A DNA stretch of 64,000 bases, taken from Haloferax denitrificans ATCC 35960. GTDB lineage: Archaea; Halobacteriota; Halobacteria; Halobacteriales; Haloferacaceae. This document shows, piece after piece, positions 58,751-63,120 of this stretch. The position numbers and the translations under genes were made by a program. How positions within the stretch are numbered: position 1 is the stretch's first letter; each line of letters begins with the position of its first letter. The stretch is taken from positions 186,001 to 250,000 of the forward strand of contig NZ_AOLP01000011.1 of assembly GCF_000337795.1 (NCBI RefSeq), written 5' to 3'. The notes below the pieces were generated by a model, which saw nothing but the letters and a program-made list of their open reading frames with translations, did not search any database and had not been told where the DNA came from.

Positions 58751-59003
58751 GGGCCGATAGCGGTTGCGTGGGCGCGCCTTCGGTTTCGTCGCGCTCGCGG
58801 GGCGAACTATTCAGCAGGCGCATCGAAGCCTTCTCCACCGAGGCAATGAGTCATAGCCGAACTAAATTCCTATGTTGAATTTAACAAAATAATCAGCCTC
58901 AGCGCTCGTAAAGCCGTTTATGTCGTTAGTTGGTGTCTTACAACCAAGAGGTTGAATAGGGCAGAGAGCATAGTTAACAAGACTCATGGTTGGGGGGAGG
59001 ACG
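58751..59003. other. AT-rich intergenic region ahead of PKD gene
   Basis: The gap has strikingly lower GC than its surroundings from about 58850 to 58985. It contains TGTTGAATTTAACA (58873-58886, one mismatch from a perfect palindrome), a possible TATA GTTTATGTCG near 58916, and a strong GGAGG ribosome-binding site (58996-59000) three bases before ATG 59004. No protein is evident. Confidence 0.5.
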
Positions 59004-60902
59004 ATGTACAAACTGGGGGTGCTCGCTCTGATACTGTTTCTTGCGGTGGGGACTGTCTCGTCTCAAAACGAGGCGACGGGTCCGCGGTTGGAAGCCTCTG
59101 CGAGGGTTTCGCAGGGCGTCGTCGAAGCAGGGGACACGGTTCGAATCAGCTTCAGCGTGAGAAACGTCGGAGACTCGGCCGAGTCCACGACGTTTTACCT
59201 CCTGTTTCCCGAGTCGAACGGGGGGTTCCCGGATGGATGGGAGATGTCCGACCGGTTCGACGACGGTGGCTCGTGGACCGGACCGGGCGCGTGGTTCCAG
59301 AAAGTACACTGGGACTGGTCCGGCTTGGAGGCCGGTGAGTCGGTCGACCCGTGGATGGAGTTTAGGGTTCCATCGAATGCGAGCGGCGTCCACACGATAA
59401 CGTGGGAACTCGACTACTCGGCTGGCGGCGGGACACAGACCGTCCAAATCGACGTCAGAGAACCCAACACCAAGCCGTCGCCGGAGTTCTCTATCAGTCC
59501 ACAAAGCCCGAAGGCCACACAGTCGATTACGTTCAACGGGTCCGCGTCATCGGACCGTGTCGGTCGTATCGTCGAATACCACTGGGACCTGAATGACGAC
59601 TCGGACTTCGAGTCTTCGGGGCCGGTGGTCCGACACTCGTTTGACTCCCCCGGTCGACACACGGTTCATCTCAGAGTCGTTGATGACCGCGGGGCGAGCG
59701 CGACCCTCTCTCAGCAAGTCGAGGTACGGGAAAACGAGAACCCGACCGTGACGATGCCGCCTCTCTCTCCGACACGCGAGCGCCAGCGTGTTCGAATCGC
59801 TCTCGAAACCGTCGAGGACCCCGACGGTGTCCGGTCGATAGAGTGGGACCTCGACGGTGACGGGGGCGTCGACCGAACAGGTGAAGCGGTGTATTTCAGC
59901 TACGACACGCCGGGTACGTACACCGTCTCAGTCACCGCGACGGACGCGTTCGGTGCCACGACGACGAGGAGCCGAGAAATCGTCGTCGTTGCGAACGAAC
60001 CGCCGACCGCCGAGTTCGAACCGAACGAAACGCGGGCGACGGAACTCGACCCCATACGGTTCGACGCGAGCGCGACGACCGACGACGGCCGCATCGACGC
60101 CTATCGGTGGGACCTGAACTCCGACGGCGAGATAGATGCGGAGGGTGAATCGGTCACCCACGCGTTCGAGACGCCCGGGACGGTCACCGTCACGCTTCAG
60201 GTGGTCGACGACCTCGGTGAGACGGACTCGGCGCGGCGAGAGATTCGCATCGAACCGAACCCGACGCCCACGCCGCGGTACGACCAGTCCCCGGCGAAGG
60301 TCGCGGTCGGGATGACGGTCACGCTGGACGCCTCCTCGTCGACCGACGACGGCTCTATCGAGCGCTACAGCTGGGACCTCGACGGCGATGGCGAGCCTGA
60401 GATGACCGGTCGGACGGTGACGACCCGTTTCAACCGCACCGGCAGGTTCCCCATCTCGCTGTCGGTGACCGACGACAAGGGGGCGACGGCGACCCACGAG
60501 GGCGCCATCACCGTGCGGAGCCTGCCGCGAGCCGACGCCGAGGTCAGCCGGACCAGCGCGACTGTCGGCGATGAGCTGTTCTTCGACGGGCGGAGTTCGA
60601 CCCACGAAGACGGCTCTATCGCCGAGTATCACTGGGATTTCGACGGCGACGGCTCGTTCGAAGCGACGGGCGCGACGACCAGACGCTCGTTCGGGGAACC
60701 GGGGACGCACGTCGTCCGACTGCAGGTCGTCGGCCCCGAGGGGTTCACCGACGAAGACACGGTGAGCATCTCCGTCGCCCCGAGACCACTGTGTGGACAG
60801 AACTGCCGGATTGGACTCGTCACCGCGGTCGCCGTGGTGGCTGGCCTGTTCGTCCTCTGGAGAGTTGTCGAGCACTTCGGGTTCTGGTCTCGGCGAGGGT
60901 GA
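59004..60902 (+). CDS. secreted PKD-repeat surface protein with C-terminal membrane anchor
   Basis: About 632 residues. A signal peptide (YKLGVLALILFLAVGTVSS) precedes a CARDB-like beta domain (to about 165). Then come five PKD/IgG-like repeats of about 88 residues, recognised by recurring WDLNDD, WDLDGD, WDLNSD, WDLDGD and WDFDGD motifs with following G-x-H or G-T-Y/H-x-V/T-L-x-V strands. A C-terminal helix (LVTAVAVVAGLFVLWRVV) anchors it. The ATG at 59004 was chosen for its GGAGG site, over 58986. Two membrane-protein genes follow with minimal gaps. It likely forms an extended stalk outside the cell. Confidence 0.85.
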   Translation: MYKLGVLALILFLAVGTVSSQNEATGPRLEASARVSQGVVEAGDTVRISFSVRNVGDSAESTTFYLLFPESNGGFPDGWEMSDRFDDGGSWTGPGAWFQKVHWDWSGLEAGESVDPWMEFRVPSNASGVHTITWELDYSAGGGTQTVQIDVREPNTKPSPEFSISPQSPKATQSITFNGSASSDRVGRIVEYHWDLNDDSDFESSGPVVRHSFDSPGRHTVHLRVVDDRGASATLSQQVEVRENENPTVTMPPLSPTRERQRVRIALETVEDPDGVRSIEWDLDGDGGVDRTGEAVYFSYDTPGTYTVSVTATDAFGATTTRSREIVVVANEPPTAEFEPNETRATELDPIRFDASATTDDGRIDAYRWDLNSDGEIDAEGESVTHAFETPGTVTVTLQVVDDLGETDSARREIRIEPNPTPTPRYDQSPAKVAVGMTVTLDASSSTDDGSIERYSWDLDGDGEPEMTGRTVTTRFNRTGRFPISLSVTDDKGATATHEGAITVRSLPRADAEVSRTSATVGDELFFDGRSSTHEDGSIAEYHWDFDGDGSFEATGATTRRSFGEPGTHVVRLQVVGPEGFTDEDTVSISVAPRPLCGQNCRIGLVTAVAVVAGLFVLWRVVEHFGFWSRRG

Positions 60903-60905
60903 ACC

Positions 60906-61244
60906 GTGCAGTCAGCGTTCCATCGTCTCGTCGCGGCCTCCTCGACGGAGGTCGTCGTGGGGCTGGCCGACAACTGGCTCAACGTCGTCATCGTGGGCGA
61001 CGTGGTGTTCTTTGTCGGCTGTCTCGGCGCTGTGCTGTGGCTGACCTCCAGTCAGCAGACCTCGGCAGTTGAGACGGCCGTTCTCTTCGTTGCTCTCGGC
61101 GTGGCCGGAGCGGTACTCATAATCGAGGTTCCGGTCGTCCGTGAAGCGGTGAGCGCGGTCGCGTTCGTCTTCGCCCTCGCGCTCCCCATCGGAATCGCGG
61201 TCAGTACCGTCGACCGGCTGATGAAGAGCGATATCAGGTCATGA
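60906..61244 (+). CDS. three- to four-helix membrane protein in PKD operon
   Basis: A 112-residue protein of hydrophobic helices (about 24-46, 55-76, 80-100) starting at a GTG 3 bp after the PKD stop. The ATGA overlap with the next gene (61241-61244) makes translational coupling certain in arrangement. No known family. Confidence 0.65.
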   Translation: MQSAFHRLVAASSTEVVVGLADNWLNVVIVGDVVFFVGCLGAVLWLTSSQQTSAVETAVLFVALGVAGAVLIIEVPVVREAVSAVAFVFALALPIGIAVSTVDRLMKSDIRS

Positions 61245-62134
61245 GCGGGCTCCGAACCGTCCCCCTGATGGAGACCGCGCCGGCACAGATCGGCTACTTC
61301 TTCGACATCTATCCCCGCATCGCGGGACCGGTGATACTCGGGGCGGGTATCGTCGCTCTCATCTGGTGGTACGCGTACGACGTCGAACTCGCGCGCCGCC
61401 GGTGGAGACCGGGATACGGACAGCGATTACTCCTGGCGACGCTTCTCGTCACAGGTGGGTTCGTGGCGGGCGTGGGGTTCTTGGCTCGAGGCGAAATCGT
61501 CTGGCTCTACGCCGCGCTCGTGTTCGTTATCGGCCGCGTGCTTCAGGGGGCCGTCTTCGTCCAGTTCCTCCGGAAGCTCGGAGTTATCCTGGGGCGCGTC
61601 GTCGACGCGGTCTCCGGTGGGGGCGGTGGCGACGGTACCTCAGTCGTCCGTCGCTTCGTCGTGAGCCGGCTCCGACGGTGGGCGTACTTCGGTATCCTCA
61701 CGCTCGTCGCGTTCGGTAGCGCCGCGGTCGCCTTACTGGGCGGGGTGGTCACCGATGCCCCGGCGTTCGAAACGGTCGCGCTCACGTGGACGGTGTTTCT
61801 CGCGATATCGACCCTCGGCACGCTACTGTGGGACCTCCGGTACGCGGCCCCCGACATCCAACGCCTCCCCCTGTTCGGACTCCTCCTCTGTATCGCCGGG
61901 ACGGAGGTCTACGTCTTTGACCTCCCGCCGCAGGTCCGGTCGTTCGCGGCCCCGTACGTCACCGAGTACGCGCCCGTTGTACAGTTCCTCCAACCGATGG
62001 ACTGGGTACTGCTCGCCGTCGGTCAGGCGGCACTCCTCGTCGGAGTCGCGTTCTCCACTGCCGTGCTCTTCTTCGGCCCCACGGACTCCGATGACGAACG
62101 GGAGACCGACGTGGCCCGTCCGGACGCGAAGTAG
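61241..62134 (+). CDS. multi-pass membrane protein in PKD operon
   Basis: A 297-residue protein with about seven to eight helices. A Gly/Asp-rich cytoplasmic loop (SGGGGGDGTS, near 125-134) divides two sets of helices, followed by a basic SRLRRWAYF. The C-terminus is an acidic tail. It overlaps the preceding gene by 4 bp. I cannot assign a family; a transporter, channel or membrane partner of the PKD stalk are all possible. Confidence 0.66.
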   Translation: MSGLRTVPLMETAPAQIGYFFDIYPRIAGPVILGAGIVALIWWYAYDVELARRRWRPGYGQRLLLATLLVTGGFVAGVGFLARGEIVWLYAALVFVIGRVLQGAVFVQFLRKLGVILGRVVDAVSGGGGGDGTSVVRRFVVSRLRRWAYFGILTLVAFGSAAVALLGGVVTDAPAFETVALTWTVFLAISTLGTLLWDLRYAAPDIQRLPLFGLLLCIAGTEVYVFDLPPQVRSFAAPYVTEYAPVVQFLQPMDWVLLAVGQAALLVGVAFSTAVLFFGPTDSDDERETDVARPDAK

Positions 62135-62191
62135 ACTACACGTCACTGGTACAACAGTACACAAATTACATCAGCACACTAATTTCAGAAC

Positions 62192-62569
62192 ATGCCTGTG
62201 AGTATCGACGACTTCGAGTCGGGAAACCTCCCACAGGGACCATCGGTCCCCGAGCAGGTGGTTACGTATCTGTACGCGCACCGCGACCAGGCGTTCACCC
62301 GGTCTGAGATTGCCAGTGCCATCGACGAGAACCCAAACGCAGTCGGAACCGCCCTCTCGCGGCTGAAGGCACGTAATCTGGTTCGGCACCGGGGAGAGTA
62401 CTGGGCAATCACCCCCGACGAAAGCCGCCTCGCTGACGCATACGACCTCCACGTCGCAAGTGAGCGATTGGACGCGAACGATGGCGGCATCGACGCCGAC
62501 GAGTGGGACTCGACGGCCCCGGATACCCCGCATCCGAGTGAACGGGACGTGAGTGAGGACGAGTCATAG
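62192..62569 (+). CDS. winged-helix protein, likely antitoxin/regulator
   Basis: A 125-residue protein with a wHTH domain (about 18-72: VPEQVVTYLYAHRDQAFTRS; AVGTALSRLKARNLV) resembling MarR-type haloarchaeal regulators that sit ahead of PemK/MazF toxins. The C-terminal 50 residues are acidic and low in structure, a candidate toxin-neutralising tail. It is followed without gap by the disrupted PemK-like gene. Antitoxin role is inferred from arrangement. Confidence 0.7.
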   Translation: MPVSIDDFESGNLPQGPSVPEQVVTYLYAHRDQAFTRSEIASAIDENPNAVGTALSRLKARNLVRHRGEYWAITPDESRLADAYDLHVASERLDANDGGIDADEWDSTAPDTPHPSERDVSEDES

Positions 62570-62898
62570 ATGCAACCGGAGCGCGGCGACGTCGCACGGA
62601 GTTCGGACCCGTTCAAACTCGGGACTGGTAGACAGCGTCCGTGGCTAATCGTCAACAACGAGACGCACCCCTTCGACGGCGAACAGTACATCGCAGTCGC
62701 CATCTCGACGAAAGCGTACGACGACTCGCTTGCGCTCTCAGCCGACGTCTGGGAGACTGGCGGTGCCCTCGGGCATCGTACGTCTCCCCATGGGCTGTAC
62801 ACTCTCCACGAAGTGAGGATTTCGTCGCCTGGCAAGGCCGCGTGACGGATGCGTTCGTCGAACAGGTCGTAGCCAAACTGGAGACGTATCTCCGCTGA
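62570..62898 (+). pseudogene. PemK/MazF-like toxin gene with frameshift
   Basis: The first 66 codons (MQPERGDVARSSDPFKLGTG; RPWLIVNNETHPF) match the start of haloarchaeal PemK/MazF-like endoribonuclease toxins. The frame then ends after 91 codons at 62845, but the other frame carries SYVSPWAVHSPRSEDFVAWQG and TDAFVEQVVAKLETYL (split here) to 62898, which is the family C-terminus. One added C in the CCC run at 62766-62768 restores GGAPRASYVSPW. The gene is probably inactive, or the base is a sequencing error. Confidence 0.72.
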
Positions 62899-63120
62899 GG
62901 TAGGATGTCGCCCAGAACACTAACGGCCGGTCTCATCCCGAGGCGGCGTGCCGCGTCGACCGGGAAACCCTCGTGCCGGGCGGTCCGTCTTTCGGGCGCG
63001 GACGTTCCGAAGTACGCCGGCGTCAGCCGGCCAGTAGGTATTGCGCACCCGGGTTCGCCGTGCTGTCATCGCTCCCGAAGCGGGAACACTCGGCCGGGGA
63101 CTTGAGGTACGCACTCGCCT
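62899..63120. other. intergenic region without assigned gene
   Basis: Between the toxin remnant and the lipoprotein gene there is GC-rich DNA with short inverted elements (GCCGGCGTCAGCCGGC near 63012) but no credible protein and no tRNA-like T-arm. The open frames crossing it are shadows of the minus-strand gene. Confidence 0.4.

Follow-up and report, generated by a model that had tools for sequence, protein, structure and literature searches.

The bacterial 7TMR-DISM receptors join a seven-transmembrane (7-TM) core to diverse extracellular modules. Among archaea, the nearest analogue of the locus described here is VARTIG of the Thermococcales, which possesses a hypervariable C-terminal Ig domain, is partnered by membrane proteins of 82 COGs, and bears the end motif DNNxxxGG in many, not all, of its members; its authors found no close counterpart outside the Thermococcales (PMC8416519). 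In haloarchaea, the operons of the Halo_adaptin ESCRT loci encode a membrane protein together with PQQ-like and Ig-like domains (PMC10936438), and the account of archaeal "dark matter islands" presents patchy mobile clusters of uncharacterized membrane and secreted proteins near mobile or defense genes (PMC4158269), a description that the present locus resembles.

The locus lies in the window (the whole 64,000-nucleotide stretch of Haloferax denitrificans DNA that was analyzed) and consists of three coupled genes encoding a PKD ectodomain protein, a small predicted 3-TM protein, and a larger predicted 7-TM protein, MP2 (Table 1). This triad works somewhat like VARTIG, yet is no member of it. 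The two share residence on recently acquired islands, a 5' gene for a large Ig-fold surface protein followed by membrane-protein genes, and recombination within the surface protein (PMC8416519). In the triad, however, variation affects the N-terminal portion (head, PKD1, and PKD2) or the entire ectodomain, one fixed 3TM-7TM pair, shared by the six triad lineages, takes the place of variable membrane partners, and none of the six triad ectodomain proteins ends in the DNNxxxGG motif. Similarly, the triad shares with the 7TMR-DISM receptors a predicted 7-TM core and diverse extracellular modules, whereas its ectodomain is a separate protein, its 3-TM partner is obligatory, and sequence searches matched no known 7TM family. 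It differs from the Halo_adaptin ESCRT loci in that no ESCRT-III, Vps4, or CetZ gene was recognized near the triads and in that the outer proteins are secreted and membrane-anchored, and neither the 3TM-7TM pair nor the triad is described in the available portion of the dark matter island account (PMC4158269).

The open reading frames, their 3-bp and -4-bp junctions, the five PKD repeats, and the membrane anchor, all put forward in the original prediction, were confirmed from the sequence and by Pfam, in which the five PKD stretches matched PKD_4 (E 5.5e-72). All three genes were intact in 3/3 Haloferax carriers with dN/dS values mostly of 0.1-0.4, and thus were judged to be real genes. The codon at 59004 is ATG, TTG, and GTG across the three carriers, supporting the start at this position; the ATG at 58986 is likewise conserved in all of them. 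In the ectodomain protein, the head (approximately aa 25-154) precedes the five PKD repeats (approximately aa 155-592), a TM helix (approximately aa 603-620), and the short basic tail. The head had no relative in PDB and gave a weak match to CARDB only (E 0.14), and no CTERM model of NCBIfam, including the archaeosortase signal PGF-CTERM, matched the protein, which ends in the TM helix and basic tail.

Table 1. Positions (numbered within the window) and properties of the features discussed, together with the outer proteins of five distant triad loci.
Feature	Position	Strand	Description
Ectodomain protein gene	59004..60902 (alternative start 58986)	+	632 aa; signal peptide, head, 5 PKD, C-terminal TM, basic tail
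Small 3-TM protein gene	60906..61244	+	112 aa; GTG start; 3 bp 3' of ectodomain gene; TM number predicted
MP2 gene	61241..62134	+	297 aa; predicted 7-TM, N-out/C-in; 4-bp overlap with small gene
Genomic island	58800..62882	.	~4.1-kb; holds triad and wHTH/PemK-like pair; empty site in G007 and G001
Winged-helix (wHTH) gene	62192..62569	+	Weak HTH matches; TA-like; outside triad, inside island
PemK-like ORF	62570..62845	+	Sub-cut-off match; frameshifted in window, full length in G177 and G002
Divergent segment	59050..59949	+	Head, PKD1, PKD2; from pairwise divergence and dS
L014 outer protein			PQQ propeller and 1 PKD
L015 outer protein			Two ~100-residue repeats and Thr/Pro stalk
L016 outer protein			PQQ and 2 PKD
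L017 outer protein			PQQ-like
L158 outer protein			PQQ and Thr/Pro stalk

Far from co-occurring rarely, the three genes are held by the same 3/15 Haloferax genomes: the PKD protein was accompanied by MP2 in each of these three, and the small protein, searched in 14/15 genomes, was found in both carriers included and was read from the DNA of the third. They reside on a genomic island whose empty site was recognized in G007 and G001, in which 322-342 bp separate the flanking genes, and alignment of the flanks breaks off at ~58800 and is restored from ~62882-62906. The GC content was 0.56-0.69 within the island versus 0.64-0.73 in its flanks. At the same site in three other genomes (G011, G003, and G006; loci L129, L130, and L131), a gene for a 560-aa K+-channel-like protein was found between the flippase and Tat-lipoprotein genes, and the island site is a small integration hot spot; a TnpB-like ORF is also present at the site in G003. 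The polysaccharide flippase gene upstream was rejected as a triad partner, being present in all close congeners irrespective of the island, and the wHTH/PemK-like pair is probably unrelated to the triad.

Within the ectodomain gene, the segment 59050-59949 diverged by ~10% from H. sulfurifontis (G177) and by slightly more (up to ~12%) from H. massiliensis (G002), whereas the remainder of the island diverged by only ~1-1.5% between the window genome and these two, PKD3-5 and the TM helix being near identical. The dS was ~0.2-0.3 in the segment versus ~0.02-0.1 downstream, and ~0.02 or less in the membrane pair. This jump in synonymous divergence indicated that the membrane-distal half of the ectodomain gene had undergone recombination. 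The ectodomain showed no sign of positive selection (dN/dS 0.21-0.25); the distal half was thus exchanged under purifying selection, and diversifying selection is not proven.

For the membrane proteins, the original prediction that no recognized family would apply was borne out in Pfam, NCBIfam, PHROGs, PADLOC, and, by sequence, PDB. At curated cut-offs, no family was assigned to any of 22 MP2 members in Pfam or of 30 in NCBIfam, and no profile of a known transporter family matched either membrane protein above cut-off in these two collections. The small protein and MP2 of the window had no match in PHROGs or, by sequence, in PDB, and neither the three window proteins nor five relatives of MP2 matched a PADLOC component model. 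The small-protein family, scanned together with its relatives, gave scattered sub-threshold matches only (Bax1-I, FUSC, and Oxidored_q2). Profile matches in PDB to K2P channels (E 0.12) and, for the small protein, to NhaA (E 0.05) were taken as chance, and these identities were rejected. Across clades, homology of MP2 was detected by hhalign (99.5%, E 2.8e-22), and a comparison of profiles matched the C-terminal half of the small protein (prob 85.5, E 5.7e-6). In MP2, G36, G103, and G220 are invariant, and the polar residues E/Q102, K112, and E222 are conserved.

Transmembrane numbers and topology were predicted. Hydropathy gave six TM helices for MP2; the AF2 model built from 30 sequences (pLDDT 64.5), which contains seven long helices, together with the charge bias indicates seven, with the N-terminus outside and the C-terminus inside. 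Over the 30 members, loop 3 was net positive in 30/30 and the N-terminus net negative in 25/30. An earlier AF2 model from 7 sequences (pLDDT 39.8) was useless. Foldseek gave no significant match in PDB or BFVD, the best being a GPCR (E 0.47). VIA-align ranked SERINC first (Z 10.1 and 8.7, rmsd 7-8 A); these scores fall below the Z of ~13 at which helical bundles are trusted, and the superposition at Z 10.1 had an rmsd of 7.6 A over 239 residues on a model of pLDDT only 64.5.

Iterated profile searches identified MP2 relatives in 19/391 haloarchaeal genomes and in 15/146 genomes of one family. No member was found outside haloarchaea in a phylum-wide sample in which 6 candidates per genome were scored, and searches of plasmid and phage collections were likewise negative; in viral_contigs, one contig matched, with the same ORFs as the provirus region of G334. 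Two first-round matches (L018 and L019) had implausible reading frames and were dropped. At 29/29 MP2 loci read, a coupled membrane gene lies upstream, with gaps of -20 to +6 bp, most often -4; the partner is small (2-4 TM, 69-128 aa) at 26/29 of these loci and larger (6-8 TM) at L073, L075, and L157. The 3TM-7TM pair is an undescribed membrane-protein pair, found here in haloarchaea only.

A search for the three-gene arrangement in other haloarchaea, as the original prediction had proposed, revealed five distant loci (L014, L015, L016, L017, and L158) at which the order ectodomain, 3-TM, 7-TM is kept with -4-type overlaps and the MP2 proteins are 18-29% identical. Their outer proteins are exported, C-terminally anchored, and encoded directly upstream of the pair, and differ in their repeats (Table 1). 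The six triad lineages, namely the window and these five, group as a single clade in the MP2 tree (support 92/90) with long branches; the triad operon has thus been retained through changes in its outer part. The TM anchors of L015, L016, and L158 were strongly alike (scores of 71-90 versus 29-34 for shuffled sequences) although their outer parts were far less alike, as docking of the anchor on the core would predict; this likeness is limited to the three related loci, since the window anchor showed no significant similarity to the other triad anchors (p 0.08-0.87). Among the 29 loci read, moreover, the pair usually has no adjacent ectodomain gene. Accordingly, the notion of one three-gene unit was upheld by the shared presence in three Haloferax genomes, the same order at five distant loci, and the single MP2 clade, whereas the suggestion that the membrane pair supports the stalk did not hold as a general role, the outer protein being replaceable and absent from most pair loci. 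Neither outcome that would have refuted the original prediction, rare co-occurrence or a match to a known transporter family, was observed. A general core able to accept various partners is nevertheless more likely than stalk support: what is conserved is the 3TM-7TM pair, which forms the core, and the PKD stalk does not define the system.

The pair loci often lie on AT-rich islands, in a provirus, or near defense- or kinase-type genes. At L043 (7765-8930) and L080 (IMGVR_UViG_2788499920_000001), the pair is inserted between the terminase genes of a haloarchaeal provirus, and elsewhere its neighbors include genes for an integrase (L044), a TIR protein (L042), a TRIP13-like ATPase (L041), and an NTase-HTH protein (L045). 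The MP2 proteins of L046, L047, and L069 have a zinc ribbon at the C-terminus, and their genes adjoin a Ser/Thr kinase gene (Pkinase and FHA at L046/L047); further zinc-ribbon, vWA, or FHA-like genes occur in the surroundings. The L159 pair lies near a vWA-kinase gene, and in two related genomes a surface protein gene is convergent to the pair (L072:5627-7495 and L074:8275-10146), PKD and TSP3 repeats being found in L072. The conflict and signaling neighbors of the pair may hint at a role of this kind, although haloarchaeal islands are generally rich in such genes.

Based on these observations, we tentatively favor, with slightly less than even confidence, the view that the triad is a mobile surface-recognition complex bearing an interchangeable outer tip on an obligate 3TM-7TM core. 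In such a complex, the C-terminally anchored outer protein would dock through its TM helix on the 3-TM and 7-TM proteins and would supply the specificity of recognition. The outer module would be exchanged as a PKD stalk, a PQQ beta-propeller, or other repeats, or in part of the stalk by recombination, and the core may transmit or execute the membrane response. Since the module is mobile and patchy, and since conflict-type genes neighbor the core on islands and in a provirus, it would most likely serve not in housekeeping but in recognition when other cells or viruses are met. A broader proposal is possible if rather doubtful, namely that the pair is the obligate core of a previously undescribed receptor or conflict system of haloarchaea, carried by mobile elements and a provirus, whose interchangeable partners (outer PKD/PQQ tips in one branch, kinase/FHA signaling in another) would make it a general-purpose device of membrane recognition and response, possibly anti-viral.

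An alternative is sensory transduction, in which a receptor-type 7-TM transducer would relay a ligand signal from the outer protein to a cytosolic Ser/Thr kinase/FHA with no role in conflict. The predicted N-out/C-in topology of MP2, the plausibility of PQQ/PKD ectodomains as sensors, and the kinase genes beside the zinc-ribbon MP2 and near L159 are consistent with this reading. We consider it unlikely, however, in view of the triad clade, in which no kinase or output domain adjoins the operon, of most other loci, which have no kinase neighbor, and of the insignificant receptor match in Foldseek. Were the PKD protein instead an adhesin of an adhesion or biofilm stalk, which the membrane pair merely inserts, anchors, or stabilizes, the frequency of PKD domains in surface proteins, the upstream flippase gene, and the co-conserved operon would fit; the absence of an adjacent surface protein from most pair loci argues against stalk support as the general function of the pair, and the flippase gene, which genomes lacking the island also possess, does not belong to the unit, which together leave this explanation quite unlikely.

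It is more improbable still that the pair is a channel or transporter moving an ion, lipid, or small molecule, with the outer protein gating it or capturing the substrate. The conserved polar residues in or beside the membrane helices and the top rank of SERINC point in this direction, but the alignment scores and model quality are low, no transporter family was matched, and no ATPase or coupling partner was found. Finally, chance adjacency of three genes without joint function on a mobile island, which also holds the probably unrelated wHTH/PemK-like genes, is scarcely credible and already contradicted by the order and overlaps kept in six diverged triad lineages of one clade in different backgrounds.

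Three unknown ORFs have become a defined, testable module, one lineage of which swaps its outer part; if the triad is a recognition system, it would be a haloarchaeal counterpart of the variable surface modules of the Thermococcales. Owing to the distribution of the triad and the naturally occurring empty site, it can be tested in Haloferax, to which the genetically tractable H. volcanii belongs. As minor observations, the upstream partner of MP2 at L075 and L157 is a 6-7 TM protein of 297-301 aa, followed at L075 by a KaiC/GvpD-like gene, and further copies of wHTH relatives occur at other places in Haloferax.
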